64,000 bases of DNA. Source: Effrenium voratum. Lineage: Eukaryota > Sar > Dinophyceae > Suessiales > Symbiodiniaceae. This document shows positions 1 to 32,437 of this stretch, one piece after another; the stretch's first letter is position 1, and each line of letters starts with the position of its first letter. The notes under the pieces are model-generated. The model was not told the origin of the DNA and did no database searches. It saw nothing but the letters and a program-made list of their open reading frames with translations. The stretch lies in NCBI GenBank assembly GCA_963377175.1, contig CAUJNA010000470.1:45001-109000 (forward strand), given 5' to 3'. Position numbers and translations under genes: made by a program.

Positions 1-97
1 TCCCGTTTCGGAAAGCAGCCGTTGCCTGAAAAACCGTTTCCTGCTGGCACAAGTGGCAGTGAAACCCAGCGAGAGATCCCGAGAGAACCTGCGAAAG
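1..97 (+). CDS. TIR gene exon 1 (5' partial)
   Basis: Open from the window edge in the frame starting at base 2. Reads as a basic amphipathic helix including CLKNRFLLAQVAVKPSERSR and ending RENLRK. Proposed donor AAAG|GAGATG (GA type) after base 97 gives phase 0, matching exon 2. The frame stays open to about 145 (MDLLRKSKPAARH), so the true end could lie downstream. Start lies left of the window. Confidence 0.55.
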
Positions 98-938
98 GAG
101 ATGGACCTTTTGAGGAAGAGCAAACCAGCAGCGCGACACGGGCGGCCGTTTTCTCGTTTGGGGAAAAAAAGAGACTCTGGCTGGCACGGGTCAAAGTTGA
201 TGTTTGATGGGCCTGAACCCGACACTGAAGCAAATGCGCCATGAGCCATGCTTGAACACAGTCATACCCTGACACATCTTTTGTGTTGATAAAGCACTTG
301 ATTTGCAAAGATATTCTTCCAAACTAAGGATCACGCACGAACCGGTTCCCCAGTAACTTTGAAAGCAACCAAGTGGGGAGGGTTGTCACTCAGCTTTGGA
401 TTTGGGACTCTGCCTGCGTTTCCACGGTGGGTCTCGAGGCTCACTAGAAATTGGGGCAGAGCCCAAATTCATTTTCTAAAATTTCCAATTGAAAAGCAAG
501 AGCCGAGGTCGTTTAGCTGGTCAATCACTGACATATCATCCCTTTGGAGAACTCGTCCCCCTGCCCCCCTGGTGCTGCAACATGGACTCGAAGAATCCCC
601 CCGCCCCACCCCGCTGCAACATGAGGTGCCCCTTGGCAGGCAGATCCCCTTTTCCCCCCCACCTTCCCGTTTTCAGCGTCTCCCGTGCCCGTAAGGAATT
701 GAAAGGGACACCGAACCGATCGTGAAGGGAAACCCGTCATGAGACACTGAAAAGGGCAATTATTTTGTTGGTTGCTTGACTGTTCTTGGCATGTTTTTTT
801 GGAACAAAAAAAGAATCCCCGTTTTTTGCAAGCGCATAAGGGTTGGAAAGCTTCCCTCACACACACAAAAACAAAATCTCATAAACACACCTCCAAAAAG
901 GTTCCCGAAAGACCCCACGCCCAAGTCCCTGGTGGCAG
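98..938 (+). other. Intron 1 of the TIR gene
   Basis: About 840 bases with low coding character. Contains a C-rich patch near 550-660 and A/C-rich text near 860-900. I recognise no repeat family here. The overlapping ORFs near 359-866 are not protein-like. Confidence 0.5.
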
Positions 939-1016
939 GTGTTGCAGATCCGCACTTGGCCCTGGCGCACATGGGGGGCCAACTGGTCCGACACCTTCGT
1001 TCTGGCCTTTCTACAG
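939..1016 (+). CDS. TIR gene exon 2 (start of hydrophobic segment 1)
   Basis: 26 codons, phase 0 to 0. Acceptor GGTGGCAG|GTG, donor CTACAG|GCCACG (GC type). Reads VLQIRTWPWRTWGANW then SDTFVLAFLQ: tryptophan-rich, then hydrophobic, continuing straight into exon 3. Confidence 0.7.
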
Positions 1017-1072
1017 GCCACGTTTGACGGGTCTCCGTGGGGGGCGGGGGGGCAAGGGGGGGAGGTTTTGTG

Positions 1073-1093
1073 CGCGTGTGTGTGTGTGTGTGG
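1073..1093 (+). repeat. (GT)n microsatellite
   Basis: Short GT run in intron 2, followed by G-runs and a poly-T/poly-G stretch at 1131-1158. Confidence 0.9.
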
Positions 1094-1187
1094 TGGGGGG
1101 CGTGGGGAATGCTTGTTCTTTGCTGTCCCGCCTTTTTTTTTTAGGGGGGGGGGGGGGGAAATTTGTGAGGGTCGATTTTTCTCGGTG

Positions 1188-1262
1188 GTGGCCAGCCATC
1201 CGGTTCCAAGGCTTTGGGTTTCCACAGCACGAAAAGTGAAGCTTTTAGCCGGGGAGTCGGCC
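1188..1262 (+). repeat. Family B element, diverged copy
   Basis: Contains the family core CCAGCCATCCGGTTCC followed by a degenerate body and AAAAGTGAAGCTTTTAGCCG, related to the usual 3' half. Confidence 0.5.
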
Positions 1263-1318
1263 AAGTGTTGCAACCTTTCTGTGTCTCTGTCATCCCTTTC
1301 TGGGGGCCTCGTCCAAAA

Positions 1319-1438
1319 TGGTGGCTCAAAATTAAAGGATCGCAGGGGCAAACCGCAGGTTTTGGAACCCAGGTCTTTCCACTGACCGATCGGGCAGCCC
1401 ATTTTGGAATTCCGGTTTTTTGGTTGCCACAGCCAAAT
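1319..1438 (+). repeat. Family C element, diverged copy
   Basis: Shares GGCTCAAAATTAAAGG, the core GGGGCAAACCGCAGGTTTTGG and a terminal GCCACAGCCA-type end with the other C copies. Confidence 0.5.
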
Positions 1439-1796
1439 AGGTCCAGAGAGAGCGAGACAGCCAAAGACCTCGTGAAAAAGACCTCTGCGAGTTGCCGACG
1501 GTTGGGCGGTTTCCGAGGCCCGTGCCATTTTTTGGGAGGGGGTCGAAGCAGTCTTGATTTCATTTCCCCAGAGAAACCCCACACCTCAATCCAAACCCTA
1601 GGTCTTCCATTCTTTTTGCCTGCCGGCTTCTTTTTTTTTGTTTGGGGCTCTCGTCCTTGGTTTTTTTCGCCAGGGCGGCCACAGCACAAAAAAAACACAC
1701 AAAAAACCCACCGCCCGCGTGTTTTTTTGGTTCTTTTTGCCTTGCCCCACCGCCCGTGCCGAGAGGTCTGGCAGGCCACTCCAAATTTGTCCCCCG

Positions 1797-1824
1797 CTCC
1801 GAGGCTCCGATCGGAGCCTCGGAG
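1797..1824. repeat. Perfect 28-bp palindrome
   Basis: CTCCGAGGCTCCGA followed directly by its exact reverse complement, centred on CGATCG. It lies in intron 2, about 150 bases before exon 3. Confidence 0.85.
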
Positions 1825-1972
1825 GCCCCCGCTTCCCGAAAAAACCCGCGGGGGGCACGCGGGTCTTCCAGGCGTCCATGCCTAGAGGGCTTGCTGGTGG
1901 CTTTGGGTCCAGCCCTAGATTTGTGGATTCGATTCTGTTTCTGCCAGGGCCGAGCGTCAACGCTCGCGCCAG

Positions 1973-2029
1973 GTGGTTCTGCTGGCCGTGAGCCCCCTGC
2001 TGGAGATGGACCAAGAACGCTCCGCCAGG
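1973..2029 (+). CDS. TIR gene exon 3 (end of hydrophobic segment 1)
   Basis: 19 codons, phase 0 to 0. Acceptor CGCGCCAG|GTGG, donor CCAGG|GCTGGG (GC type). Reads VVLLAVSPLLEMDQERSAR. Joined to exon 2 it gives FVLAFLQ-VVLLAVSPLL, long enough to span a membrane. Confidence 0.68.
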
Positions 2030-3591
2030 GCTGGGGGCACCCGGAAGAACCGCCTGCACACCGCTGCAAACCGGAAACCGCGCGGGAAACGTCCGGTGCG
2101 CGGGTTCGGTGACACTAATCCCGTGTTCGGCTTCTTTTGGTCCGTCCGTCGGAGGGACAAAAGGGGGGGTGAACAATTCCTGGGAAAAAAGGGGGGGAGG
2201 GATATGCTGGACACTTATATTTGGCAACCTCCTTTGTTCGGGTGTTGGTTTTTGAGGGGAGTCTGCAAAGACTCTAAGAGTCCCTGGCGCTGGGGGGATT
2301 CTTAAGTCGGAATGCTCAACACTTGGGTCTAGTTTTTTTTTTTTTTTTTCTCCGGAGTTATTTGGAGGATGGCTCTACTGACTCGATCGCTTGCGGGCAG
2401 AAATTGTTTTTGTCCACGATTATTTCGGAATCCATTTGTTTGAAGTCATTGAACGGGCCTCCCAAGTTTGGGTGAGGGGAGATTCGTGTGGAGCAGTTCA
2501 CAGTGAAGCCTCGGGCGCTGCATGCGTAAATTCCTCCGACGGAAGGTGAGGAGAAAAACAAACAGCCGGGATGTGGGACTTGGGAACGATATGCAAACCC
2601 ACCCTGAAACCCCCACAATTTGAACGGGCGTCTTTGAGAAGCCACCAGAAAGGTATGGCTATCGTGAGCTGCTCGGGATTTCCCAGTTTTGTTTTGCCGT
2701 TTTGCCACTGATGCGCTGTCCTCCCTGTGGCGCCAATCACACCTGACGCCACTAACACAGCACTTGTGGGACAGTACCTAAATATCCAGTCTTCTGTTAT
2801 CGGGACCCCTGTCAGGTGCCATGCTAGCGGGAGGGAGGGTAGCTGTGTGACCCCAACATTTTCCCGGGGTTCCCGCAACAAATCAGTTTGACTGCGCTCC
2901 CCACGTTTGTTTTGAACCGGTGAGGTGCATAAACGCCACGCGGGCAGTGGATGCGTTCTTCGAGTCGGCCAGCGGAAATGCGGTTTCCACCCTATTTGTT
3001 GGGGGTTCCATGGGTTCCCTCAAAAAGCATGCAAACCCACTGGTCCGCTTGGAGGACAACTACCACCCCCTTCTTTTTCGGAGGGGAGGATTGGGTGCCC
3101 TTGAACACGCGCGCCCCTTTTCGGAGGGCTGCCCTTTTGGGGGAGGGACCTGACCCCCGGAGATCTCCATTTATTCTCCAAACCTAAAACGCATGCCAAG
3201 GGCGGAGCTCGGTGGTGCCTTTTTTTTGGAAGGAACGGGATTTTTTCTCCGTGACCCTTTGAGAAGTGGGTGTGGGTCAAACAAAATGGGCCCTGGTAAA
3301 GGGAATCAAGGACTAAAACCTGCGGTCCAATTCCTGGTGAATTCATTGTGACCCATACCCAAGTCATGACCCACCCAATTCACGATGGCGCGCCATTCCT
3401 TTTTTCAGTCAAGGACTCAAACCTTTACCAGCTGAGGAAACCACTGGACCAAACCACAAAAACACCAGACCGTGAAGCCCGGCTCCCTGCATGGGGCCTC
3501 TTCGCCTTTTTTGGGGAAGCCCTCTTCGGAAGCCGCCCGCGAGAAGCGAGGCTCGTCCCTTTTCCAGATCCGATTCTTTCGGAGCGCCCAG
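2030..3591 (+). other. Intron 3 of the TIR gene
   Basis: Holds a family C copy in reverse orientation near 3303-3360 and poly-T at 2335-2350. An open segment at 2925-2982 (reads AVDAFFESASGNA) is followed by GTTTCC and could be a skipped exon, but its phase does not fit exons 3 and 4, so it is not called. Confidence 0.45.
3303..3360 (-). repeat. Family C element, reverse partial copy
   Basis: GACTAAAACCTGCGGTCC and GTGACCCATACCC are the reverse complement of the family C core and end. Confidence 0.6.
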
Positions 3592-3676
3592 GTTCCCTTC
3601 GGCCCGTATCAAGATTTCTCGCGCAAGGTCATGGGCTGGCTGATGACCAGCGCGGTGATGCTCTGTCTCAGCGCAG
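3592..3676 (+). CDS. TIR gene exon 4 (hydrophobic segment 2)
   Basis: 28 codons plus 1 nt, phase 0 to 1. Acceptor GCGCCCAG|GTTCCC, donor AGCGCAG|GATGGA (GA type). Reads VPFGPYQDFSRK then VMGWLMTSAVMLCLSA, a clear membrane-type segment. An alternative donor CGCAAG|GTCATG would cut it short, but the hydrophobic run continues perfectly into exon 5. Confidence 0.72.
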
Positions 3677-4697: not shown

Positions 4698-4734
4698 AGA
4701 CTTGTCCATGGCGCGTTAGCTCGCCGAGCGCGAG

Positions 4735-4818
4735 GAGTGGGCTCGTCCCTCATCGTGTTGCTGAAACGCTGGTACAACCGGGCCGCCTACGGCCTGTTCC
4801 TGTGCCACCACAAGCGAG
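4735..4818 (+). CDS. TIR gene exon 5 (end of TM2; TIR box-1 region)
   Basis: Phase 1 to 1. Acceptor GCGCGAG|GAGTGG, donor AAGCGAG|GCCCCC (GC type). The hanging G of exon 4 plus GA makes Gly, giving CLSAG-VGSSLIVLLKRW. The exon then reads YNRAAYGLFLCHHKR: a beta-strand followed by a polar turn, where TIR domains carry box 1. The positive KRW after the hydrophobic run suits a cytosolic boundary. Confidence 0.74.
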
Positions 4819-6005
4819 GCCCCCCCCCCCCCCGCGTTTTTTGTTTTTTGTGGAGGGCGGAGCAAATCTGGAGGCAAGGATTCCCTGGGTGCCCATGCAT
4901 GCGTTCTTTTCTCATTCTCAAGACGCGTGTGCCAGCTCAGCTCATTGTGGGCCTTTTGGGAATGGCATGGAAAGGAAAGATCACACAGCTCACATAAATC
5001 AGAAACAGGGGCACTCCCACAGCATTCAGAAAGCCACGCGGGGTTCTTGATGTGGGTGGCTGGTCTCGGGACCCCGTTTCTTTGTGGAGAAGGAAGCCGA
5101 ACGGAAACCCACCGTTTTGGGGTCCCCTCAAAAGAAGACACACTTCCAATCTTTGAAGCTGTGAGTTTGTGTTATTGTTTTGGCTCGAACTGGCATAGAT
5201 ACAATCACTTGGCTTTGAGCCAGTGCCGAAGTGTATCGTTCAATCTTCGACCAGCTACATTTGAATCCTAGCTGAAGCCTAGTCCAGCCCCTTGTCTTAA
5301 GCAGCAACCTAATTCAATGGGTGAGAGCCACACACTCCCTTTCATATGTTTCGAACAACATCGACCGATGTTTGAAGGAGCTAAAGGGAACTCCATCAGT
5401 TCCAGGGTTCCCTGCATTTACCCAAAAGACATCCAGCCACTTGTGAATGATTACCCTCCCTCCCACTACCATGGCACCTGACCGGGGGGTCCCTTGAAGA
5501 GGAAAACGAGATCTTCCAGGTGCCCTCCAGTTGCTATGGTGGGAGGGAGGGTACTTGGCAGCCAACACGCAGTTGCCTTTTCTTCTTTTCAGAGCCTGCA
5601 GCTCTACGGGCGGGGTGAGCTTGAGATGCGTTGGGTGAGCATTCGATGGTATCCGCCAGAGGATTCCAGAGGAAGCTCCGGGAGCTTCGGGGATTTTTTG
5701 GAAGACTTGGTTCAGAGGCGTTCTGGCGGGACCATGTAGGGAGTGTACCACCTGCACATGTTGGTTTTATCTCCTTCACTTTCTCCGGCAAGTCTTCGCT
5801 TTCCCAGCCGGGAAACATTTTGGCCATCTACTTTTATGGTGTCAACTATTGAAAGGTCCACTAGCCCAAGTCCAGATTCTCGGAGAGGGTTTCTTGAAAT
5901 GTCGCATGAGGGGAGAGCTCTTGCTAGGGAAACACAAATGAGCAGCGCTCAAAACCCGCAAAAGGGCCATTTCATTACTTGGTTTACTAGAGATTGCAGT
6001 GAGGC

Positions 6006-6085
6006 GTAATGTTGACCCCGGATTCATAAACCCCAGGGTCCCTTTGGTTTAGTGGGGATTCGCCACTGTTGGGGATTCCTCATTT
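6006..6085 (+). repeat. Family K repeat (GTTGACCCC...CAACCCC type)
   Basis: GTTGACCCCGGATTCATAAA then CCCCAGGGTCCCTTTGGTTTAGTGGGGATT matches the pattern of other K copies at 21050, 50975, 56171 and 62474. Confidence 0.5.
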
Positions 6086-8165
6086 TCCGCTGTCGGCCCC
6101 AGCACATACGCAGATGATCTTGTTCATGAGATCACGGACACCGGTCCGCCTCAGGTTTCACGTCGCTGTGCATGAAGCAAAGGCTGTCCAGTCCACTCCA
6201 GTCCTCAGCCGCTCCGCCCAAGGTGCCGATCGTAGCCACGTGTATAGCTTATGCAGCTGGATTGCGGACCTTTTGGGCAGCAGCCGCTTACATCCAGCTT
6301 CTTTGGCTAAGCGCAGGGCTTGGCCAAGGAACTTGAGGGAACTCACAGCTGTTCAGCGAAGGCGCAAGATGGACATGCTGACGGGTCTGACGTTTCTAGG
6401 CGAAATTTTCCAGTGGAAGCAGAACATGCAGAGTCAGTGAACTTTTTGCATCTTCGAAGGATGCCACTGCCTTGCGAGGTTCCGGCTCCTCTCCACACAG
6501 CTTCAAATCGACTATGTGTACCGAAAGAATCAGCGCCAGACGACCGGCCACGTGTTTGCAGAAAATCTGAGCACCCATATTGGGCGGGTTGGATTTACAC
6601 CGATGGACCTGAGCTCTTTGAAGGGCAAGAAGCCAACCAAGGAGCATCCAAACCGAATCACCTCGTTTCGTCAAAGCGCTAGTAACCGTCCAGCGTTCAG
6701 GGAAGCTTGGCGGATGAAATGTCACCCTGCGATGCTCACCTGCTCCCCCTGCGTGCAGCGCCTCAAACGTCAGACCACGCAAGAGTGTCTCACTAACGTC
6801 GGCAGAAAGAACTGTCGAGCCAAATTGCACTGAACCACGATGATAACTCTCTTTCCCCATCCTGAAGTTGTAGCTGCAAAGCCTTCAGCGCGTTGCCAAT
6901 CAAAGACCTTGCGCCGCAAGTCTTGCTTGGATACGGTTCTCAGACTTCATTTGCTTTCACTTCAGCACCCATTTCGGCTTCAAAGTGTTGATTGCACGCT
7001 TCGCTGTTTGACCCAGCGCATAAGCTCGCTGAGCATTGCTTTCAGCGTTCTGCGAAGCCTCTCTGCGTGTCAGAACATTGTCTCGTTCAATCACTGAGAG
7101 AGGTGTTGGCCCCTGCAGTGAAGAGCATACCAAAGGCAGAACACGTCCAACTTGTGAAGTATTACGTCATACCTGCTGGGAAAGCCAGCTCCGGTAAATC
7201 GCCAGCATCCTGTCATTGCAGACAAGTTCCGGCGTCTCTGCAGGCCAGCAAACATCTAGCGGTTGGGCTGCGCAGCTGTAAGACAGAGTGGAGACCGCTG
7301 CAGAACTGTCTGCTGGGGCAAAGAAGAAAAAGAGGCAGCTTGCAGATCAGCATCGCTCCCTTGTCATCTGCGCCAGTCGCGGCACGGTCAATCTCCTCAG
7401 AAGCCTTTTGCGTAGGCTTGCGCGCAAGGAGCTTGTTGGAGCTGTCCTTGAGGTTCGCCAAAACTGGCTCAAGCACCAACCACTTGCCGCAAACTTCCAA
7501 CATCATCTTCGCCCGGAAGCGCGCGCTGTGGCACTGAGATTACTTCCGGCCTCTCCTAGTGAATGCCGGGACACCAACGATGCTTAGACAGCCAAGACTG
7601 GTTCTCCACTGATTGCGAAGCTGTCAAACACTAAACTTTACTGCGCGCGTTTACTTCTGCAACCGCCACTCAACCCTGCTGATCTTGCGAATGCAGTAGT
7701 CGCATGAGCTTCTCTGCGCGCATGCTGTCCATGTTGCGCCCTGAACCAGCGCATGGCCCGGCCATGCGAATCCAGAGAACGATTGGTTTCTGAAGTTGCA
7801 GTTGTCTCAACGTTTGAGATCGCTTGATAGAAATGCAGCGGTTGCATACCGTAGTCCTGGAAGCAACACCGTCACACTTGTCAGCAACACGCCTCGCTGC
7901 TTTGCAAGAATCTCCTGAGCGTTTCGAACGAGCTCCCGCTAGCCATCTGCCCATTGCGAACTTTGCGCGATCTCCGAGCCTCGAAGCCTCGGAGCCGACG
8001 AGAGCGATCGGAGTCCGCCCTCTCCAGAGGAAGCGCAGCCAAAAGGGGCGAAAGCTGCTGGATACCACTCAGGCCAGGAAAAGTCAGCTTCGCAATCCAG
8101 AAGGCCAGAAGCGCTCAAGGTCGTCGCCTGATTTGATTGTGAAAAGTTTGCGAAGACTGGGCGTG
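6060..8165 (-). pseudogene. Coding-like island in intron 5, probably a decayed intronless coiled-coil gene copy
   Basis: This 2.1 kb differs from its surroundings: no poly-G/C runs, no recognised repeat family, even base use. The minus strand shows helical segments in shifting frames: 6957-7091 (REASQNAESNAQRAYALGQT), further along LIGNALKALQLQLQDGEREL (about 6845-6905) and, at 7213-7506, EVCGKWLVLEPVLANLKDSS. Frame changes and stops separate them. Some plus-strand frames also read well (for example 6516-6700), so strand assignment is uncertain. I do not know the family. Confidence 0.4.
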
Positions 8166-8282
8166 TTGTGTTCATCCAGAGACTTTTACACTTTTGGGTG
8201 GTTCAAACACTTACATGGACTAACGCGGGTAGAACAACCCACTTCTTCTTTAGGGTACTCCCCTCTTGCTAGTCGTATTTTG

Positions 8283-8408
8283 ACTTGCTGGTGCTCGGGG
8301 AATGAGGGAATGACCTCCAAAAAGGGGGCAGGACACTGCGGTACCCTCCAACAGATTTCACCCAACTGGTGGTTCATGCCCTCATTCCCTGCCTGAGCAC
8401 CAGCAAGT
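8283..8408. repeat. Imperfect inverted-repeat element (ACTTGCTGGTGCTC ends)
   Basis: ACTTGCTGGTGCTC at the left is matched by GAGCACCAGCAAGT at the right, with GGGAATGAGGG / CCCTCATTCCC just inside: a small foldback element of about 126 bp. A related arm occurs at 23680-23703. Confidence 0.75.
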
Positions 8409-8447
8409 TGAGGTCCCCCCCCCCCCCGTTTTCCCGCTCCCCGGAAG

Positions 8448-8487
8448 GCGCCGGGAGCTTCTGCCGGCTCATCAAGGTGCTGGCGGC
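8448..8487 (+). CDS. TIR gene exon 6 (TIR helix A region)
   Basis: Phase 1 to 2. Acceptor CCCCGGAAG|GCGCCG; its GC completes Gly with exon 5, giving HHKRG-AGSFCRLIKVLAA. The end is uncertain. A GC donor after 8487 gives the phase needed by exon 7, while the frame stays open to about 8530 (AAQCPSAEASP). Confidence 0.62.
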
Positions 8488-8599
8488 GCAGTGCCCCAGC
8501 GCAGAAGCCTCCCCCCCTTCTCCCCTGCCCGTGGCACGTTTTTGTTTGTTTGTTTGTTCGTTCGTTCGTCTGGTTGCGTTTTGATGTGTTTTGTTTCTT

Positions 8600-9017: not shown

Positions 9018-9101
9018 GAACAGTGCCGCGACGGTTTTTCTGGACTCGGACCACCTCGAGGACTTGGATTTGCTCTTCGATATCGTCCGCTGCCAGACGA
9101 G
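9018..9101 (+). CDS. TIR gene exon 7 (TIR strand B and helix B)
   Basis: 27 codons, phase 2 to 2. Acceptor TTTCTCGGAACGAATCTGAG|G has a pyrimidine-rich lead. Reads NSAATVFLDSDHLEDLDLLF then DIVRCQT. FLDSD plus a following helix is the kind of strand-helix unit seen in TIR folds. Donor ACGAG|GCGGGC (GC type) leaves AG, completed by G of exon 8 to Arg. Confidence 0.8.
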
Positions 9102-9151: not shown

Positions 9152-9258
9152 ATAGGTGTCCTTTTCGGCTGTCTTTGGTCGAAAAATAGATGGCCCTGGT
9201 TTACCTGGTGGTGTAATCATCTACTAGGGCCATCTATTGGCCCCAAAAGGGCACCTAT
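9152..9258 (+). repeat. Family D element (MITE-like)
   Basis: Ends ATAGGTGTCCTTTT and AAAAGGGCACCTAT are inverted. Inside are AAAATAGATGGCCCTGG and CCATCTATTGGCCCC, also inverted. Sits 50 bases after exon 7. Confidence 0.8.
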
Positions 9259-10290
9259 CCCGATGAATCTCAGTGAGGAACAGCTTCCCAAGTGGTCGTT
9301 GGAGACAGATTCCCAAATCACATCCTCAGAGTGTCTCCAGTCGCTATTTGCAGCGAATCCAATTCGCCAAAAAAAAAAAAAACGCCACGTGGCCGTGTGA
9401 AATGGGGCCCGCCCGAGCCTGAAGCGCCGAGACTCGCCAAAAAAGAAGACGGGAAGAAACCGTCCGTTCCACCAGGAGCTTGAGTTTCGGAGTACTCCCC
9501 TGCCTGATTTTGATCGAGGACTCCTCCCCTGGGAAGTGGAACCGGTTTGTGTATCTGGGGTCAACATTGCTTCTTTTTGTTTAATAGAGCAATTGGGAGG
9601 ACCTTCTGATCCCAAAAAGCTCCAGCACTGGACCCGTTCCTTGAGCCATACATGGTGCAAAAAATAGAACATGCGGCGTGGTTTACTGGATGTTTCGGGT
9701 TGTAAAACACTTGACATGTTAAGTCTCGTACCAGAATGAGGAGCTCAGATCAGGAGCCTTTTTGCATGAGTTCACGTCTCCCTGATCCAGTAGCGAGGAA
9801 AGTGGTTGGCTTAGGGTGATGTCCAAAGCGAATCGCGGTGTCGCCTTTTTGGACTAGGTTTGACGCGATACCATTTGCCGTGGGCCGAAACTGGCTGCCT
9901 TCCGTATGCGTGTTTTCTTCTTTTATCGCCGAAAGTTAATCAAAATCCGGATGTAGTTCAAAGTTCGGCTTGACTTCCTTTGGTGTCCCTCATCCAGGAG
10001 CCATTTGTTGCCTGTGACAAAGGCCCCTGGGTTTGCACGAACGAAGACCCCTGGGACCGCCAACCCAAGAAGCCCACCCGATGTGATCTCAAAATCCGGA
10101 TCGATAAAGGGACAGTGCGCGTCCGCGCTTTCAATTCCTTAGGTTTGGGGTAGATCACTTTGGAGCCCTCTTTCCGATGGAAGTGTGACAGGAGGCCATT
10201 TCAACAGCATCTGGCATCTCCAGCCATTTTGGGGCGAGTTTTTTGCGGGTTTTGGCGGCCATTTTGGGGTGGGGAATCTGAGTCCATGTC

Positions 10291-10306
10291 GAGTCCTCGA
10301 GGACTC
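10291..10306. repeat. 16-bp palindrome at the exon 8 acceptor
   Basis: GAGTCCTCGAGGACTC is self-complementary and contains the acceptor CTCGAG|GACTC of exon 8. Confidence 0.8.
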
Positions 10307-10379
10307 TGGTGGTGGTCCTCTCCGGGGACGTGCTGCGAAGGATGTGGTGCGCCGGAGAGATCGCCACTGCGAACAAGCG
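10302..10379 (+). CDS. TIR gene exon 8 (TIR strand C and WCxxE motif)
   Basis: 25 codons, phase 2 to 2. Joined to exon 7 it reads QTR-TLVVVLSGDVLRRMWCAGE. A hydrophobic strand ending in LS, followed by W-C-x-x-E at the start of a helix, is the signature around the catalytic glutamate of enzymatic TIR domains. End unresolved: GC donor after 10379 (AAGCG|GCCCGG) or GT donor after 10397 (CCCTG|GTAGAA). Both keep phase. Confidence 0.8.
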
Positions 10380-10596: not shown

Positions 10597-10696
10597 GAAC
10601 AAGGTCCGCACGGTGATGCTGAAGTGCGAGGACTCCCAGCAGCTCTCAGAGGAGATTCGCTTCGATCTGCGTTGGATGCGTTCGGAGTCGTCACAG
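10597..10696 (+). CDS. TIR gene exon 9 (TIR strand D)
   Basis: 33 codons, phase 2 to 0. Acceptor GGCTTGCCAG|GAAC. Reads NKVRTVMLKCEDSQQLSEE then a charged helix ending RWMRSESSQ. Donor TCACAG|GCCGCG (GC type). A strand followed by a helix matches TIR order after the WCxxE helix. Confidence 0.74.
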
Positions 10697-11460: not shown

Positions 11461-12500
11461 GAGCGTTTCCGGAAAGTCGGAAAGTGTCCAATAGATTTTG
11501 CAACTCGGGGGCACATCCTTGGGACTCTCAGAGTACTCCATGGGTGTTGGCCTGGGCGCCACGCTGTCAGATTTCAAGAGTTGACTCGTACCCAATGCAC
11601 GCAGCGCCAAAGGAACCAAGTCGAACCCGTTGGAAGGAGCATTCCAGGTCAGCGTCCAAAGCAGAGCGCCTGCTTGGTGCGAGAACTCCACTTCCGAAAG
11701 TTTGTTTCCAGTTCTTCAGTGGATTCAAACTTTGAATCCCTTTCCGCTCAACAGCGGCTTGGCCCCAAAATAGATGTCTATGTCTTCTTTTGGGGGAGAA
11801 CTCCCCGCTGCTGGGTGTTTTTTTTCTAGGGAACCCAGCCGGCAAACTGCCCGTGTTCCTTTCTTTTGCCAGTCGCGGCCGGCGACTGAGACTTGAGGTG
11901 CAAGGGGCTCCGAACTTCTGGTTTTCCCTCGGGGTGTCCCTTGACACCAGCCTGAATTGTGGGTGCCGCTCCCCGAGCTGTTCGTCTTTCGTTCTTTGGC
12001 GTTCAGACCAGAGAGGTCGGACCAAACAGCTTGGCTCTCCTTTTGGCCCATCAACTCAGGAAGTGAGATGCATCGCTCTGGTGTTGCAGTTGTCTCCACC
12101 TTGGGTGTTGTACTTGTGTCCACCACATGGGTCGATAGAAAAAAGAAAATCCGGAAAAAGGAATCCAAAACGCAAATCGGGAGATCCCTGGCTCCCCCCC
12201 CCTTTCAAGGGATAACTTGTAAAGGCACCCACCCCACTCCAAGGGGGTGGTTTTGCCACCTTTTGTGAGAAACAAATGCGAAAAAAGTGCCCAGAGGCGG
12301 CGTCTCTTTTTTTTGGATTGGTTGAGTTTCAAGGGGAAAACCCTTCCCCCCAAAAAGCAGTTGGACCTTTTCAAGAAGGAATCCTTCACTACAAGGAAGG
12401 CTCGATCATCTTTCCGTACCAAAGGCGGCAAAAAGACCCCGAGCAACGCGGGCCCCACCGCGCGCCCCACGCGTCCCACGGGTCCCGCGGGTCCCGCGAG

Positions 12501-12556
12501 GAGCTGATCCGCGACATCCCGAGCTCCTGGCGGCAAGCGGAACGGCAGACGCTGTC
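12501..12556 (+). CDS. TIR gene exon 10 (post-TIR helix)
   Basis: Phase 0 to 2. Acceptor GTCCCGCGAG|GAGCTG. Reads ELIRDIPSSWRQAERQTL plus TC. A GC donor (CTGTC|GCCGCT) makes the phase fit exon 11 (TC+G = Ser). The frame is open beyond (SPLGYG), so the end is not certain. Confidence 0.62.
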
Positions 12557-12930: not shown

Positions 12931-12964
12931 GTCCTACGGTATCTCCATGGAGGATATCCAGGAG
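12931..12964 (+). CDS. TIR gene exon 11
   Basis: 11 codons, phase 2 to 0. Acceptor CCGTCTTTGAG|GTCC, donor CAGGAG|GCGCCC (GC type). Reads SYGISMEDIQE and flows into AYRTLRDLP of exon 12. Confidence 0.7.
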
Positions 12965-13769
12965 GCGCCCGCGTTTGGTGGTGCGTTTGCCCGAGCCATC
13001 CCCCTTCGAGCGAATCTGTGAGACGCCTCAGGTAGCCATTGAGCTAGGTCCAGGGGCCCCGCGAAAAAATATTCATGGAGCTAAAACATCTCATTGTTCA
13101 GGTGCGGTTTGCCCATGGTGAGAGTGACTGGAAGCACTGAGGGGGGGGGGAGTAAAATCGCGTCAGGGTGTCGGAAACAGAGAGATGCCGCATGCCTCGC
13201 GAGCGCCGGGTTTTCGGCACGCCCTTTAGGTCCTGCAAAGGGCAACACCTATTTTGGTTGCAACATGGGCGTGCACTTGTGAAAAGGACCATTGTCTTTT
13301 CTGGGTGTGTCGTTTTTTCACGGGAAACTCCAAAATGGGGGGGGGCCCTCTTTTGGTTTCCCGGAGAAAAAAACAAAACAAAACAAAAGTAAACATCAAA
13401 CAAAAGTAAACATCAAACAAAAGGGAAGCAACTCAAAGCAAAAAAAACGAGCCACCCAGAAATACTTCTAACCCCTTGCAGGTCAAGTCGGGCGCGGCGA
13501 GTCTCAGTTTCGGGGACCCTGAAGATGGCCAGGCAAAACAGGTTTCTCGAGGATGACTCAAAAGACACGCTTTAAACATGGAAACGAGTCGATGATCGAT
13601 TTTTCTAGACTGACAACGGAACACGTCTCATTGTTTTTTCCTTGGGGCATTTCCCAAAACCTTTGTTTCTTTGCAGCTGTTTTTTGCTCTTGGGTTCTCC
13701 CCTGTTTCCTTTTCAGAAAGCAAAAAAAAAGAAAAGCGGCCGCCCCGTTTGCACCCCTCTCTCGGCGAG

Positions 13770-13894
13770 GCCTACCGCACGCTCCGGGACCTGCCCTCGG
13801 TGCAGATGCGCCGCTTCGGGCGGCCGCAGGAGCTCTCGAGCGCGCGATCGCGCGAGAGCGCGAGATGGGAAACGCCGAGCTGTTGCAGCCCAAG
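13770..13894 (+). CDS. TIR gene exon 12, with apparent frameshift
   Basis: Acceptor CTCTCTCGGCGAG|GCC, donor CCCAAG|GTCGAAG (GT type). The 5' part reads AYRTLRDLPSVQMRRFGRPQ in the phase set by exon 11. The 3' part reads ERAIAREREMGNAELLQPK in the phase required by exon 13. The two frames differ: 125 nt is two bases more (or one fewer) than phase 0-0 allows. The switch lies in a palindromic stretch (about 13836-13858) with CGCGCGATCGCGCG at its centre. Confidence 0.66.
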
Positions 13895-17480: not shown

Positions 17481-17579
17481 CGAAAAGCTGGGGGAGGTAG
17501 TCGGGGTCGTCAAAAGAGGCTCCTTTCTTCGGGGCCGAAGCGGATCGCTTGAACCTATGTGAATCAGGTGGAACACATG

Positions 17580-19040: not shown

Positions 19041-19091
19041 GCGCTGGCGGCTTGTGAGGTTTTCCAGGTCTTAGTGCAGCAGCACATCCAG
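19041..19091 (+). CDS. TIR gene exon 14
   Basis: 17 codons, phase 0 to 0. Acceptor GAGATTCGCAG|GCGCTG, donor ATCCAG|GCGGGG (GC type). Reads ALAACEVFQVLVQQHIQ, a helix. Upstream codons are open, so an earlier acceptor is possible, but this one gives the smoothest join to exon 13. Confidence 0.76.
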
Positions 19092-19955: not shown

Positions 19956-20782
19956 TGTTGTGTGGGTGTGTTTGCTTTTGAGGGTCCCCGTTTTTTTTTT
20001 TTTTCCCCCGATTGCCTTGGGAAGCCAATAGCAAACCAAGATCCGTTGTTCTGCCCGAATTTTTGACACGCAGACCCAGACTCTTGAGGCGAGGCAGGGG
20101 TTGTCTGGTTCATTGCGCCAACATTTGGCAGATCCAAAGACGTGTTTTTGGGTATTTTTCTTTGAAGCCTATGGTGAGAAAGTTGGAGTCTGGGTGGGAC
20201 TTGGACTTGCTAGTACTTAGTATTCCCCATACTTAGTTCAGTATTGCCAAGACTTACTCTCAGATTCCCAGTAGTGTTTTGTTTGGAGGGGAAAAACAAC
20301 TTCCTATTAAAGCCTTGAAACAGTCACAGGGTTCCGATTTTGGAAACATGTTGTTGCATCATAGCGACTCCGAAAAGGAAACAGAAAACGGGTCCGACGT
20401 AATTAGAAGCGTCCGCAGGTAGAGTGCGCGATGGTCACCAAGCGCGGCGCGGCTTGGTCGCCTTAGTGGGAGGCCAAAGGCGTCCGACGCAAGCATACGG
20501 TGTGGTTGTGTGTGTGTGTCGCTTGATGGCGGTTCCCTGTCATCCAGTTGCTTCTTTGTTTAGGTTTCTAGTTGGTTTGACCCACTAACACTTAACCCAC
20601 TAAACCGGTGGGGATCAGGTTGGACAGGTGACAGTTGCATCGGTGGCTATTGGTGGTTTGGTTCCCCAACTCTCCGGATAGCAACTCGGGGTTCCCAATC
20701 GCCAACTCTTGGGCACCAGTTCAGCTTTCACAAAGCCAAGAAGCCAAAGCACCGATTTCAGGATTCTTTACACACACCCAAC

Positions 20783-21314: not shown

Positions 21315-21405
21315 GAGCTCATGGCGCGAAGACCATGGGCGCGATACCTGGCGGTTCTGCTCTCCGGGGACATCCTCACGGATCCCGGCTTCGCTCGCGC
21401 CCTGG
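21315..21405 (+). CDS. TIR gene exon 15 (second TIR-like strand C)
   Basis: Phase 0 to 1. Acceptor GCCTCCATCGCAG|GAGCTC. Reads ELMARRPWARYLAVLLSGDI then LTDPGFARAL. The strand YLAVLLSGDIL parallels TLVVVLSGDVL of exon 8, but PGFAR replaces the WCxxE stretch. End inferred: GC donor CCTGG|GCTGCA. Confidence 0.75.
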
Positions 21406-21898: not shown

Positions 21899-21970
21899 AC
21901 ATATATATATATAGATAGATATATATATATATATATTGTAGATATATATATATATATATAGGTATATATA
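21899..21970. repeat. (TA)n-rich tract
   Basis: Several TATATA blocks with ATAGATAGAT spacers. Confidence 0.9.
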
Positions 21971-23007: not shown

Positions 23008-23129
23008 TGGTGTTCCTTTGTTAGGTGGCCTTCTGGAAAAATAGATGGCCCTGGTAAATGGAATAAACCCCATCTAAACCAGTGGAACCCATCTATTTTC
23101 AACCAAGCTAACCCAAAAAGGACACCTAT
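23008..23129 (+). repeat. Family D element
   Basis: AAAATAGATGGCCCTGG and CCATCTATTTTC inverted, outer end AAAAAGGACACCTAT. Copy of 9152-9258. Confidence 0.78.
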
Positions 23130-23234: not shown

Positions 23235-23332
23235 GCATTTTGCTGGCGGACGCGGAGTGCGAGAAGCCTCTGGAGATGGTCACCATCTGCGCGGACGCGG
23301 ACTTCGCGTTCCCCAACTCGGTCTTTTACAAG
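23235..23332 (+). CDS. TIR gene exon 16 (second TIR-like strand D)
   Basis: Phase 1 to 0, 32 codons plus 2 nt. An in-frame TGA just upstream forces a start at TGAG|GCATTT. Reads ILLADAECEKPLEM then VTICADADFAFPNSVFYK. Donor TACAAG|GCGCGC (GC type). Confidence 0.8.
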
Positions 23333-23512: not shown

Positions 23513-24012
23513 TGACTGGCTCAATTGAAGGGAGCCCTTTGTGTTGGAACCTCTTTGCCCTGCTGGTTCGATAGGCAGGGAATCAGAAATGGAATGGCCC
23601 CTAGATAAAAACCATCCCCGATTTGATTTCCTTTAAGCGGAGCCCCCTTCCGGTTCATTCCCAACACGCGGAAGGTCATTCCCTACTGAGCACCAGCAAG
23701 TTGCATCCCACCCCCTTAGCAATTGCGCAGCTGCTTGGAGTGTCACCCACCAACTCTTATTGGTGTGTACATGGCAGCGCTTGCTTTACAGTATTTTACG
23801 TTTTGTCATTTGTGATTATATAGCAATGTTCCGAAGTCTGTCCCCCATTCTCTTGGTAACCCACAAAAGCCATGGTTTTAAGTCTCCGTTCAGTGGGTTA
23901 TCTCACCAATCTTACTAATCACTTGCCAAGTACCCTTTGGCACCCCTTCAAGTGGGGTCCCTCGATTTCCATGGGGGAAAGTTACCCCATGGCCCAACTC
24001 GACGCATCGCAG

Positions 24013-24078
24013 GAGTTGGAGCAGCAGGGCTTCGTGGCCGCGGGGATCTCGCCCTCCGAGGGCTGTGCCCTGGTGAAG
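24013..24078 (+). CDS. TIR gene exon 17
   Basis: 22 codons, phase 0 to 0. Acceptor GACGCATCGCAG|GAG, donor GTGAAG|GCGGAC (GC type). Reads ELEQQGFVAAGISPSEGCAL then VK. Coding-like text continues in another frame (ELGDAPSFGEEISGAV, about 24107-24155) but would need an intron under 30 nt, so it is left out. Confidence 0.68.
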
Positions 24079-24441: not shown

Positions 24442-24516
24442 GCCTGGAAGTCCCTGTGCCAGGTGCTGGCGCTGCCGCTCACGCCCCAGGGCTCCGAGCG
24501 GATCTTGGGGGAGCAG
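24442..24516 (+). CDS. TIR gene exon 18
   Basis: 25 codons, phase 0 to 0. Acceptor CAGTGCGCGCCAG|GCC, donor GAGCAG|GCGGGG (GC type). Reads AWKSLCQVLALPLTPQGSER then ILGEQ: a helix, a strand-like LALPL and a helix, a typical end for a TIR-type fold. Confidence 0.78.
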
Positions 24517-26352: not shown

Positions 26353-26392
26353 GTGGTGGAGATCTGCCGCCGCTTCCGGCACTATCAGGCAG
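26353..26392 (+). CDS. TIR gene exon 19
   Basis: 13 codons plus 1 nt, phase 0 to 1. Acceptor CATATTGCCAG|GTGGTG, donor CAGGCAG|GCCCTT (GC type). Reads VVEICRRFRHYQA. The hanging G plus GC of exon 20 makes Gly. Confidence 0.66.
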
Positions 26393-26423
26393 GCCCTTGA
26401 AAGCAAGGACCCCCAAAGTTGTT

Positions 26424-26799: not shown

Positions 26800-27464
26800 A
26801 GATAAGCCCGCGCAAGCCGGCCGAAAAACTGCCTCGGCGGTTGTTTGATGGGATCTTTCTGCTTGACAGCTTTTTGGGGAAATGATTCATGCGTGTCTTT
26901 CCCACTAAACGGCAAGAAGAGGTTCGCTTTTTGCGGGGTGGTTCTTTTTGCCGCCATGTTGCGGGAATTTCTTCGAGCCAGGATGCCTTGAAGGGGCATG
27001 GCCAAGACTCGATGATGGCGTCTCGGTCTGGTTAAGCCATCGGACGGGCGCTGGGGGCTGGGTACTCGAAGGGGAAGATGTGGGGCGCGGCCAGCGGCCC
27101 ATCGTGGCAAGATGCGGCTGACCTTTGGAGAGATTCGATTTTTGCCCATCTCTCATGGCTGTCCCAAAGGTAAAAGAGTAGGGTTCCAACCATCTCTCAG
27201 AGATTCAAGAGGACAGCTGACCATAAGGTATCTGCTCATGGCTGTCCTTTTGATCGGTCCGTTTGGGCAATGAAATAGAAGGGCCCCGCTGGGTGAAGTT
27301 ACGAAATTGGTTGTTCCATTTACGAGGAAGGAAACCGCTTTGCGATTTGTACCTAGTTACCCCGCCTGTGTTGTTCGGGTTTCTGTTTTCAGGGCTTGTG
27401 GTTGCTTGGAGAGAGGGCTTCGGGAGAAAACGGCAGAGCGCCTGTGGATTCAATCATGCAACTT

Positions 27465-28055: not shown

Positions 28056-28059
28056 GTTT

Positions 28060-28176: not shown

Positions 28177-28439
28177 GTTTGTGTCAGTGTTTGATTTGAC
28201 CAGGCTCACAGTGCAACAATGAGCTATTACCAGTATACTGCGGGGTCCCAATGACTTTAGGTTAAAGCGATTTGGTTTTTTCTGCTTCAAGTGAGGCTCA
28301 ATGATAGTTGCATTTAGCAATCGGCCCCTTCCCCTTTCCAGTAAGGTAAGCCGCGTTGCTTTTTTTTAGAGGTTCAGAGCTGCGGGTCAGTGTTTGTGTG
28401 AAGAGACATGCCAACACATCTTTGTGTCATTTGTCTTTC

Positions 28440-29153: not shown

Positions 29154-29189
29154 GACCTTTCGGTGGTTCCGCAGGACGTCGACGTGGAG
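29154..29189 (+). CDS. TIR gene exon 21
   Basis: 12 codons, phase 0 to 0. Acceptor GATGCGCGCCCAG|GAC, proposed GA donor GTGGAG|GAGGAT. Reads DLSVVPQDVDVE. Weakest link in the chain: all three frames are open here. Confidence 0.45.
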
Positions 29190-30779
29190 GAGGATGGCCG
29201 GAGGACCCAGCATACCCCTTTGCGTCGTTGGTCGCTGACGCTTTTGTTTTGGGGGAATTGGTGATGTTCCTTCTGGCTTCCCTTGAAAGCAGGGTTGTGG
29301 GATCAAGATGTTTATCCTTCCCACTTCCGTGATACAAGGGAATCCCCTCTTTAAATGGGGGGTATTCTTTGGGAGGCCCTTTTTTGTCGTATCACTTCTG
29401 TGGATTCCATGTCCCACAGGCCTGCTTTAGAGCCACCGAAAAACGAGTACCCTAAAAAAAAGGCGCGCTACTTTGGTTGAAACCACCAGACCTCAAATGC
29501 ACGGATCGGGTTCAGCGTGTCTCAACAGGCACAACTCGGGAGCTCGGAGAATCTTCGTGGGCGTTGAACGCCATCCGCGTCGGAAGTTTGAGACCAGGAC
29601 TGAGTTAGAACACGGCGGCTTTCCGTTGATTGGTCCTTTAAACCGCAAAAATGGGGGGGGAACCCTCAGAACAAGACACGGCCACATGAGGCTTGAGCTA
29701 TATTTTTTGTTCGACCCTCAAGTGACCACATAGGGAACTGTTCCCAGGTGGGGGCACATCATCTTTTGAGTGGTTTTCCCCATCCCATGCAAAGGATCTT
29801 TGATTAAGCCCACTGTGGATCCCAAACATGAATCAAAGGAAGCACAGACCGCTATGATCCGTTTCGAGTCAGCATCCCAAGCTCAGCTGGCGTTGCCAGT
29901 GGATCCACTGGGTCTGAAATGGCATAAACGGGCACAAAGAAGCATGGGATCTGTTTGAATCAGCATGTCTCCATATCACTGAAGCCAGGCTGGAGAACTC
30001 GCACTGGGGGGGGGTCCCTGGTCATTCTTGCCTGCTGCGGCGGTTGGTTTGCGCGGCACTGTCACGAGGCCAGATTTGGGCGCAAGTTTTAGCGATCTAA
30101 GATGAGAATGCGACTGAAAACACGCCCAGGTTTCATTCCAGACAACATTTTAGATGCCCCGACTGGAATAAACCAATTTCAGCATGCTTCGCGCTTTCCG
30201 AGCTAGAACCCCAGAAAGGATAGTCATGTGGAGTTCATCAGCCCGTTGCCGAGCAATCGGTCCGCAGGTCTGTCAACATGCCATCGCTGCAACGCATCAT
30301 AACTTCGTCACTACGTCTCACTGTCTCACTGTCTCACTGCATTGCACGTCGTCATATTTTACTGCGCCACATTTCGGCCTCCAGAAGGGCCCCGTGCTTT
30401 GAAAGCAGAGGGTTCATTGCTTGGCCAGTTTTGAGCTTGCGGGGAGCACTGGAGGTTGGTTTGGAGGCATACATCCCAGCCTCCTGCCTATTTCGGATGA
30501 TTGGACACTGGTTTCCCTCGTTCCTGCCAACACTGGGAACTTAGAAAGATATGACTTTTTAATAAAGAACACCCAGTGGTTGGTGTACACAAATCCCCAC
30601 CTAGATGATGTGTACCAAAGGGTCCCCCACCAGAATCCACAGCATGAGCAACAGACAAAATGATCAGAGTATTTGTTTCTTGTCAACCGCCAGGTTCCTC
30701 AAGGCAAGAATTGGTTCCCGGGGTTGCGGAAAACTTCAAAGCCAACCTTTTTTCCTCACGCTCACAGAATGTTAGAGCC

Positions 30780-30892: not shown

Positions 30893-31344
30893 TGGTTGGA
30901 GCTGCTTTGCCGATGAAAAAAAAAAACGCCCCACCTCTCCGCGCGCGCCTTAGGCTGGAAGTCCGTGCTACCAGTGCAAGTGACGCGGCCCCGTGGCCCA
31001 GGGTCGTCGCCTCCAATGGCAACGGTCCATGCTTTTTCCTTTCTGTCGCGACAAATAACATGGGCGTGTGCTTTGTGTCATAGAGTTCCAATAGATGTTT
31101 CACGTTCCTCCTTACATGTCAATGGTGAGTCCAAAAGTGCTTTGGGACCAAGACTAAGTCGATCGTTGCAAAGCTGTTAACCTCGATCCACTTCGCGCAG
31201 ACGCACAGGTTGGGTTCAGATCACCTCCAACGTATCGCGTAAGCCGAAGGCTGCAAAAGACCGACGCGGAGTTTAAAAACAAAAAATCGGCCATGGGAGT
31301 TGCCAGAATACTTCACTTGGCAGTTCCCAGCGTTTGACTCTTAG

Positions 31345-31470
31345 CTGTGAGGGTGTTTTTCTTTTGGCGACCCCCCCCCTCCCAAGAGAATAAAGGTGGT
31401 TTTCCTCTTGGGTTCCCTTTAAAACCAAACAGAACGGTGCCCTCCAAAAAAGGCAGACCCACATGAAGAA
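31345..31470 (+). repeat. Family L element
   Basis: GGGTGTTTTTCTTTTGGCGA, GGTGGTTTTCCTCTTGGGTT, CCCTTTAAAACC, GTGCCCTCCAAAAAAGGCAG. Confidence 0.6.
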
Positions 31471-31886
31471 TCTGGAGGGATTTATGGATTCGTACCCTGC
31501 AGGCTTGACTCGTTGCATCAAACAAAGCCAAGTTCAGAGCTGGTCATCAGCTGGCCAGTAAGATAACTTTGATACTATCTGCTTTGGGGGTCAATACATT
31601 GGTTTCTTTCATAAGGATCTTCGTTGTTCTTTTCGGGTGGAGAAAACATAGTTTGCCAAGAATGACTTCCCTGCGCGAACTACCATGCCACGGTCTTGAC
31701 TAGGCCTTATGGGGGGCCCAAACAAGTTCCAGGGGTCTCCCTTTTGTCTCCCTTTTGTCTCCCTTAGGGAGGTACCCCACAATGGTGTTTTCCTTTTGTC
31801 TCCCTTTCAAACCACTCCAAGTCCCAGGGAAAATGGGGCAACCCGTGAGTTGGACCGCTCCCCTTTCATTAAAAAAAGACCGCGAG

Positions 31887-31921
31887 GGCCACTTGCGGCT
31901 CACGGAGCCCTTTGAGGGAAG
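31887..31921 (+). CDS. TIR gene exon 22
   Basis: 11 codons plus 2 nt, phase 0 to 2. Acceptor AGACCGCGAG|GGCCAC, donor GGGAAG|GCAAGA (GC type). Reads GHLRLTEPFEG plus AG, completed by G of exon 23 to Arg: PFEG-R-SDSDPD. Confidence 0.75.
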
Positions 31922-31932
31922 GCAAGATGCTT

Positions 31933-32062
31933 CAGGGCTCCTTAAAAGATCTCCACTTTGCAACCATTTGAAACATGTTGCTTTGTCAACACCAAAATAC
32001 AGTTGGAAACCACCAAATAGACAAGTTGCCATGTTCAGGTGGTTTTGATGTAAGGATCCCTG
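31933..32062 (+). repeat. Family H element (MITE-like)
   Basis: CAGGGCTCCTTA and TAAGGATCCCTG are 12-bp near-perfect inverted ends. Body has ATCTCCACTTTGCAACC, ACACCAAAATACAG and CAAGTTGCCATGTTCAGG. Starts 12 bases after the exon 22 donor and fills much of the intron. Confidence 0.88.
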
Positions 32063-32151
32063 TTCAAACTCCTCGTTTTTGGGTTGGATCGACGTGTAAC
32101 CCCTGCGGTAGAGAAAACAGCAACCATTCAGAAATGGCTCTGGCTGACACC

Positions 32152-32154
<3 letters not shown>

Positions 32155-32193
<39 letters not shown>

Positions 32194-32213
32194 ACCACAC
32201 ACACACACACATT
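32155..32213 (+). repeat. (CA)n microsatellite
   Basis: ACACAC run with a short GCAACC interruption in intron 22. Confidence 0.95.
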
Positions 32214-32227
32214 CCTCCCTCCATTTG

Positions 32228-32318
32228 GGTGTCTTTTTTAGGGAGACCCTTCAAACTGGGTTGTTTTTCTTCTGGCAGTCCTTCAAAGCCACCAAAGAAG
32301 GGGTACCCGAAACAAGAA
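32228..32318 (+). repeat. Family L element, short
   Basis: GGGTGTCTTTTTTAGGGAGA, GTTGTTTTTCTTCTGG, GGGGTACCCGAAAC. Confidence 0.55.
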
Positions 32319-32346
32319 TCAAACATTTCACCTCCATGTGGCCGAG

Positions 32347-32437
32347 GTCGGACTCGGATCCAGACAGCCCCTACCAGAGCCGCGTCTCTGTGCTGCGCAA
32401 GTCCAACTTCATCCTGCCGAGCCGCCTCTCCCTCTGA
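32347..32437 (+). CDS. TIR gene exon 23 (terminal, with stop)
   Basis: Phase 2 start; acceptor GTGGCCGAG|GTCGGA. Reads SDSDPDSPYQSRVSVLRKSN then FILPSRLSL and TGA. Serine/arginine-rich tail outside the TIR-like units. The G after AG completes Arg with exon 22. Confidence 0.8.

Follow-up and report, generated by a model that had tools for sequence, protein, structure and literature searches.

What kind of protein is encoded by the series of very short open pieces scattered along this stretch of the genome of Effrenium voratum, an alga related to the coral symbionts? To our knowledge, little is understood of the surface sensing by which dinoflagellates, coral symbionts among them, perceive hosts, microbes and nutrients. 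A first-pass annotation of the 64-kb stretch of DNA analysed here (the window) described a split gene for a membrane-anchored tandem TIR-like protein, and the motifs on which it relied are indeed present on the plus strand: LFLCHHKR (4794–4817), FLDSD (9037–9051), TLVVVLSGDVL (10303–10335) and WCAGE (10345–10359). Our best reading, to which we give a probability of about 0.55, is that these pieces are the 3′ portion of a long gene whose product is a polytopic receptor at the cell surface, with a cytosolic, NAD-cleaving TIR domain (TIR1) and a second, regulatory TIR domain (TIR2).

A 392-residue draft, assembled by hand under the guidance of a coding-score scan and known TIR patterns before any database match had been seen, proved to be 94% identical over 92% of its length to P0001, a gene model from E. 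voratum itself (E 1.1e-205). By exact mapping to P0001, the final 24 exons of the gene lie in the window, all on the plus strand; they join in compatible phases, as had been proposed, into 1452 nt in frame and give a translation identical to P0001 residues 47–529, followed by a stop codon at 32435–32437. The earlier estimate of at least 23 exons was thus right in number, but the exons measure 10–33 codons rather than 11–41. All 23 introns end in AG|G (donors: GC 19, GA 3, GT 1), and each has one legal solution across the in-frame join of 483 codons. Since P0001 comes from the same species, it is no independent proof of splicing. Comparative sequence support that is independent of this model comes from shared introns, uninterrupted paralogous frames and transcript-labelled relatives. 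Eight of 24 intron positions, with their phases, are shared with a paralog of 46.7% identity (16 differ), compared with a mean of 0.34 and a maximum of 3 in 2000 trials of random intron placement. At two paralogous loci, the last helices, TIR1 and TIR2 lie within uninterrupted frames. Both TIR markers are present in the transcript-labelled relatives P0004, P0015 and P0029; P0068, likewise transcript-labelled, is without the TIR2 marker. For E. voratum itself, Iso-Seq and RNA-seq data have been reported (PMC11114475).

These observations bear on the possibility that open pieces arising by chance, or a gene copy in decay, have been read as protein. While the tiny exons, the predominance of GC donors and the weak Pfam score of the product could be taken in its favour, it has to contend with the exact in-frame join, with strong homologues whose catalytic columns are conserved and with the intron positions shared with the paralog. 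A chance join is excluded by the exactness of the join together with this conservation, and we regard an artefact in general as very improbable. Nor do we treat the splitting of the gene as a novelty: in the available part of a report on the related Symbiodinium minutum, genes have a mean of 19.6 exons, and many small exons with GC or GA donors are ordinary (PMC4083563). Since such exons are ordinary for the clade, the surprise lies in the architecture.

The first exons of the window encode the end of a membrane region (here and below, coordinates follow from the exact mapping to P0001, and structural labels partly from the predicted structure). Exon 1 (939–1016; P0001 residues 47–72), preceded by AG|G, covers the end of helix 7, a WPWRTWGAN loop and the start of helix 8; after an intron with a GC donor (1017–1972), exon 2 (1973–2029) supplies the remainder of helix 8, a loop and the start of helix 9, which continues through exon 3 (3628–3676; VMGWLMTSAVMLCLSA) and ends in exon 4 (4735–4818), which also encodes TIR1 strand A (YGLFLCHHK). 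The two hydrophobic segments noted at first are correct for the window; in the whole protein they are the last two of nine, as counted in the AlphaFold 2 (AF2) structure predicted for the paralog P0024, P0001 alone having four hydrophobic segments. The gene starts outside the window: P0001 residues 1–46 map where the contig reads N, the N-terminus of P0001 is short relative to the exons found upstream, and exons that encode a Cys-rich stalk and additional helices were found up to ~42 kb before the window, several of them individually weak matches (E 0.003 to 0.5). From the first upstream exon found, which lies ~3 kb from the contig start, to the stop codon, the gene spans at least 74 kb. Based on hydropathy and one AF2 model, the membrane part is predicted to be a nine-helix core below a Cys-rich ectodomain, so that the first-pass annotation was right about a membrane protein but not about a simple anchor.

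Could this nine-helix core be a TRP-like ion channel, gated by binding outside the cell, with the TIR pair only tuning or localising it? The TRP model PF06011 matches three of 33 full-length relatives at E <= 1e-3 (best 3.4e-06), in the helix region directly before TIR1 (for example, P0039 848–975, with HHK at 989; P0008 363–498), but the best score seen, 26.6 bits, falls under the curated cut-off of 28.5. No such channel appeared among the structure-search matches listed, although fold searches of whole models were dominated by TIR1 and Cys-rich matches and barely probed the helices. A whole-family profile run against the PDB matched Cys-rich proteins (mastigoneme, ELAPOR1, Ephrin and TNF receptors) and the calcium-sensing receptor, with TIR absent among the matches. 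Overall, we consider a channel improbable.

TIR1 occupies the exons that follow: helix A in exon 5 (8448–8490; AGSFCRLIKVLAA), strand B and a helix in exon 6 (9018–9101; VFLDSDHLEDLDLLFDIVR), strand C and helix C with WCAGE in exon 7 (10302–10376), strand D (VRTVMLKCED) in exon 8 (10597–10651), and then exons 9 (12501–12556; ELIRDIPSSWRQAERQTL) and 10 (12931–12964; SYGISMEDIQE), the C-terminal part in exon 11 (13770–13829; AYRTLRDLPSVQMRRFGRPQ; GA donor) and the final helix in exon 12 (15702–15743; ERREKVIELLRVSQ). The structure prediction that had been suggested for the joined product was informative here, as the flavodoxin-like alternation of strands and helices typical of a TIR fold is clear in the P0001 model, in agreement with the initial view of a dinoflagellate membrane protein with a TIR domain. 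Equally, the initial failure to match a named family is borne out by Pfam TIR_2, which gives P0001 13.6 bits where its cut-off is 28; among Pfam TIR models, the best score seen in full-length relatives is 27.2 (P0014), and TIR_2 matches nine of 14 TIR1 segments at E <= 0.01, the best at 3.2e-07, the window's own segment not being one of the nine. NCBIfam and PADLOC gave weak Thoeris-like TIR matches in relatives and none for P0001 or P0024, and a PDB sequence search with a single TIR1 sequence was uninformative. From a large protein set, an alignment used as query retrieved a single sequence, itself a row of that alignment. A viral library contained one matching TIR protein, from Tetraselmis virus 1 (E 5.5e-04).

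Does TIR1 cut NAD? Glu197, in helix C, aligns with E642 of SARM1, and this column of the SARM1 W..E motif is Glu in 73 of 73 rows, although 70 of these were retrieved with the TIR1 region itself as query, which favours rows carrying the motif. For both predicted models the closest VIA structure match is the SARM1 NADase TIR; Foldseek ranks plant TIRs first, at modest E-values of 3e-04 to 1e-03, and sugar-isomerase domains follow closely. From sequence and model, TIR1 looks like an NAD-cutting enzyme. Since animal Toll-like receptors whose TIRs act purely as scaffolds can carry WCxxE-like motifs as well, the Glu is insufficient for calling an enzyme, and it is quite possible that a receptor of the same architecture uses its TIR pair as a non-enzymatic scaffold, like the TIRs of Toll-like receptors and MyD88, recruiting cytosolic TIR or kinase partners; the invariant Glu and the SARM1 matches speak against this.

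The second TIR-like unit noted at first was confirmed as a homologue of TIR1. A linker and strand A in exon 13 (16704–16796; ARILVTGSVMDAE) lead to helix A in exon 14 (19041–19091), strand B in exon 15 (20419–20448; at 30 nt the shortest exon), strand C and a degenerate helix C without the catalytic Glu in exon 16 (21315–21396; LLSGDILTDPGFA), strand D in exon 17 (23235–23332; MVTICADADFAFP; at 98 nt the longest), exon 18 (24013–24078), C-terminal helices in exon 19 (24442–24516; AWKSLCQVLALPLTPQGSERILGEQ) and the domain's end in exon 20 (26353–26388; VVEICRRFRHYQ). In one hhalign comparison TIR2 matched TIR1 at 97.3% (E 1.9e-11, 135 columns), compared with at most 0.4% for ten shuffled controls. 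The column matching the catalytic Glu holds Glu in none of 60 TIR2 rows, while the column just before it does so in 13 of 60, rows for which a one-residue alignment shift weakens the statement that Glu never occurs. Judged by its sequence, TIR2 is a degenerate TIR in which the catalytic Glu is missing. The TIR2 marker is missing in 24 of 73 relatives, many of which are short pieces. The protein closes with a C-terminal tail (exon 21, 26982–27017), acidic in exon 22 (29154–29196) and continuing through exon 23 (30954–30987) to the Ser/Arg-rich end and stop codon first described, both in exon 24 (32347–32437); residues 492–529 are predicted to be disordered (pLDDT <50).

The relatives are "TIR domain-containing", "Grm8" and "Scube3" proteins of Polarella, Durusdinium, Symbiodinium and Cladocopium, alongside P0001 of E. 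voratum, some bearing the database names mGluR7, Grm8 or GRM1. Among 33 full-length relatives, 31 have the Cys-rich stalk, 19 an ANF_receptor sensor (an mGluR-like ligand-binding domain) and one, P0064, leucine-rich repeats; P0013, a full-length relative from Polarella, has an ectodomain resembling a binding protein. The gene is a member of a dinoflagellate family of putative receptors without a named Pfam-type family match, and the matches listed from openly licensed PubMed Central papers contain no description of a nine-helix, paired-TIR architecture.

In the receptor-enzyme reading that we prefer, a ligand would bind an extracellular N-terminal sensor, which for this gene would lie beyond the contig end, and the resulting change in shape or dimer state would be relayed inward by the Cys-rich stalk and nine-helix core. 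TIR1 domains would then assemble and cleave NAD via Glu197, like SARM1 and plant TIRs, yielding a nucleotide signal or depleting NAD. By analogy with pseudo-enzyme partners, we infer a regulatory role for TIR2, which would restrain TIR1 or aid its assembly. More tentatively, the family may constitute a separate, expanded class of dinoflagellate receptor-enzymes, in which interchangeable sensors (amino-acid-receptor-like, bacterial solute-binding-like, beta-helix or leucine-rich repeat) are mounted on a Cys-rich stalk and nine-helix core shared across the family, followed by an NAD-cleaving TIR and a catalytically dead TIR regulator. If so, small molecules or surfaces outside the cell would be converted directly into NAD-derived second messengers, without G protein, kinase or adaptor. 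Receptors in which a SARM1-like TIR is coupled to binding domains of mGluR-like or bacterial type would be concrete candidates for dinoflagellate surface sensing, and a catalytic and a Glu-less TIR in one chain would offer a ready system for how TIR enzymes stay off and switch on.

How does this architecture compare with known systems? In the NAD hydrolases SARM1 and C. elegans TIR-1, ARM and SAM domains precede the TIR, whereas here a nine-helix membrane core precedes it and a Glu-less TIR2 follows; Pfam scans of P0001 and its relatives gave no ARM or SAM match, and membership of the SARM1 family was dropped on this ground. Plant TIR-NLRs (RPP1, RUN1, RPV1) differ in that the protein here is a putative membrane receptor, with no NB-ARC match in the same scans. 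Class C GPCRs (mGluR, calcium-sensing receptor) share the ANF_receptor sensor and Cys-rich stalk of most full-length relatives, but the family has nine predicted helices followed by TIR domains and no 7tm_3 match in these scans, and we set membership aside for the helix count and the missing 7tm_3. Toll-like receptors are likewise cell-surface receptors, as we take this protein to be, with a cytosolic TIR, and the repeats of P0064 recall theirs; yet they have one helix rather than nine, a single TIR rather than two, and a leucine-rich-repeat ectodomain where most full-length relatives have a Cys-rich stalk and no such repeats. The Cys-rich upstream exons, the nine helices of the P0024 model and the four hydrophobic segments of P0001 led us to drop Toll receptor membership. 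In its available part, a 2026 atlas of eukaryotic TIRs reports a few SARM1-like TIR sequences in dinoflagellates, with no receptor, TIR2 or ectodomain description seen there, and eukaryote-only clades (3, 9–13) without a characterised member, so that a receptor of this kind would widen TIR biology; the TIR1 of this family may be among the atlas's SARM1-like dinoflagellate TIRs (PMC13142454).

Reading frames by hand, guided by known TIR patterns and a scan for coding score, we assembled a 392-aa draft product prior to sight of any database match. The four TIR-like motifs quoted by the first-pass annotation lay on the plus strand where it had placed them. In a protein search, the draft matched P0001, an Effrenium voratum product without a name of its own (UniRef title 'TIR domain-containing protein'), with 94% identity across 92% of the draft. 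When mapped onto the window, P0001 resolved into 24 exons running from 939 to 32437, whose 1452 joined nt encode exactly P0001 residues 47–529 plus the stop, bearing out the earlier proposal that tiny scattered exons join into one product. Exons measure 30–98 nt (mean 60.5) and introns 220–3629 nt. With GT, GC or GA allowed as donor and AG as acceptor, each of the 23 introns has a single legal solution; the donors are GC (19), GA (3) and GT (1), and the following exon begins with G at 23/23. This pattern matches that printed for Symbiodinium minutum, for which the published account gives an average of 19.6 exons per gene, donors of the GC and GA types and, often, a G after AG (PMC4083563).

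Because P0001 is a gene model from the same species, its agreement with the window is partly circular. Support independent of that model is provided by a paralog, common introns and uninterrupted loci. For the paralog, P0024, 45 exact segments on contig C3568 cover residues 1–992 of 1002; each of the 44 junctions has a single legal solution, and AG is followed by G in 43/44. The part that P0024 has in common with P0001 is 46.7% identical over 522 aligned positions. Eight of 24 intron positions have the same place and phase in P0024, where random placement would give 0.34 (maximum 3 in 2000 placements); the other 16 differ, and many introns are therefore lineage-specific. Uninterrupted frames at C3252:438430-439716 (429 codons) and C2546:819794-821050 (419 codons) each run from the last helices through TIR1 and the linker to TIR2, while C3627:205591-206715 holds helices and TIR1 only.

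Several other features were seen in the window. Intron 4 (4819–8447), the gene's largest, contains minus-strand open pieces at 6399–6860, 7336–7524 and 7670–8068, of which the one at 7336–7524 has a high coding score and matches PspA_IM30 weakly (E 0.0017, 18.4 bits vs 33.9); they may represent a gene fragment, nested or retroposed. The dispersed sequence CCCAGCCATCCGGTTCCTTAG has four plus-strand copies (16076, 22110, 27472 and 41898), each differing from the pattern at no more than 3 bases; the first three fall within the gene's introns (0 in 100 shuffles), and the sequence may be part of an intron-borne element. In intron 6 (9185–9238), the short inverted repeat AATAGATGGCCCTGG / CTAGGGCCATCTATT, whose sequence recurs once in intron 16 (23040–23054; 3 matches vs 0.15 expected), is perhaps a small introner-kind mobile element. 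Two-copy tandem duplications with 100% match lie at 17123–17481 (179 bp) and 59574–60003 (214 bp). Downstream of the gene, a plus-strand run of short pieces with high coding score (49013–63550; for example 49013–49195, 50674–50874, 52427–52576, 57666–57797, 60230–60358 and 63386–63550) resembles a gene for TPR-type helical repeats; when parts of eight of these pieces were joined, a Pfam scan up to E 1 found nothing. At 53814–55210, long tandem arrays of GTGTGTGG and GTGC (the latter about 1.1 kb) enclose a 100-base N run, perhaps an assembly gap within the repeat.

Upstream exons were sought by tblastn with relatives as queries on C470, of which the window is G000:C470:45001-109000 in the 1.156-Gb genome. 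At approximate contig coordinates, we found Cys-rich stalk exons at about 3033–3218 (best E 2e-05) and 4908–5006 (E 1.8e-06), followed by helix-region exons at about 7719–7781, 9303–9353, 12120–12179, 13132–13224, 23719–23772 and 27394–27456 (group best E 5e-04 to 0.07) and 28311–28424 (E 1e-10). A further piece, VNFNGMMIFSLFIA (about 21918–21959), is weak (E 29) and rests on place and reading. The exons lie in the expected order on the gene's strand, and the gene therefore extends toward the contig start over at least 74 kb. These stalk and helix exons are missing from annotated P0001, which thus looks like a model cut short at its N-terminus. P0001 residues 1–46 are absent from the C470 mapping because the contig partly reads N; the gene's first domain is not visible there.

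Of 239 candidates from a search with the TIR1 region, 70 proteins passed E ≤ 1e-5, and three from the search with the draft brought the family to 73. All rows bearing an organism name, many having none, are dinoflagellates (Effrenium, Polarella, Durusdinium, Symbiodinium, Cladocopium). Among 33 full-length members (at least 1000 aa; matches at E ≤ 1e-3), Ephrin_rec_like occurs in 31, ANF_receptor in 19 and TIR_2 in 7, with single members matching OpuAC, SBP_bac_1, beta helix, leucine-rich repeat, ankyrin (at the start of member P0028) or Sel1 (at the end of P0021). For the domains found in 13 individually scanned members, the order is sensor, Cys-rich stalk, helices, TIR; the outside part is thus swapped and the core kept. 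TRP matches 3/33. Searched against its own genome at E ≤ 1, P0024 gave at least 48 matches spread over 14 contigs (46 of 115 candidates scored), part of them to the Cys-rich portion only. Paralogous Cys-rich-plus-helix frames of at least 250 codons on C2113 and C3235 had no TIR motif that we saw, so the receptor core seems to occur without TIRs too, with a different effector or none.

TIR1 has a predicted TIR fold. In the PDB, the top match of its profile (14 sequences) was a weak one to SARM1 (E 0.0095), with WCagE opposite SARM1's WVHKE, whose Glu is E642 counted from G601 (entries 7cm7 E642A, 6o1b G601P). W193, C194 and E197 are identical in 73/73 rows, 70 of them gathered by similarity to this same region. 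The second TIR-like unit of the first-pass annotation proved related to TIR1 (hhalign 97.3%, E 1.9e-11 for a single comparison, against no more than 0.4% in ten column-shuffled controls). At the TIR2 column matching the catalytic one, Glu occurs in 0/60 rows with a residue there; the column just before has it in 13/60. Judged from sequence, an invariant Glu in TIR1 and its loss from TIR2 is the pattern expected of an enzyme that has a dead partner domain. Toll-receptor TIRs carry a comparable motif and are not known to be active, so the conserved Glu is not proof of activity; a scaffold is a less probable reading than an enzyme.

We put the probability that the gene encodes a receptor-enzyme at roughly 0.55; a channel is an improbable reading. 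Such a receptor would sit at the cell surface, its nine helices leaving the TIRs on the inner side; the N-terminal sensor, unseen in the window gene, would bind a ligand, clustering would lead to NAD cleavage, and TIR2 would regulate.

Database names in the family include mGluR7, Grm8 and Scube3. By the features tested, the protein does not belong to the SARM1, Toll-receptor or class C GPCR families. A eukaryotic TIR atlas reports a few SARM1-like TIRs in dinoflagellates and holds no description that we saw of the proteins bearing them (PMC13142454). No description of the architecture was found in the literature searched, within which we rate it an undescribed combination of known domains on a known principle. 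In its proposed working, it would be most like a receptor-linked SARM1-type TIR.
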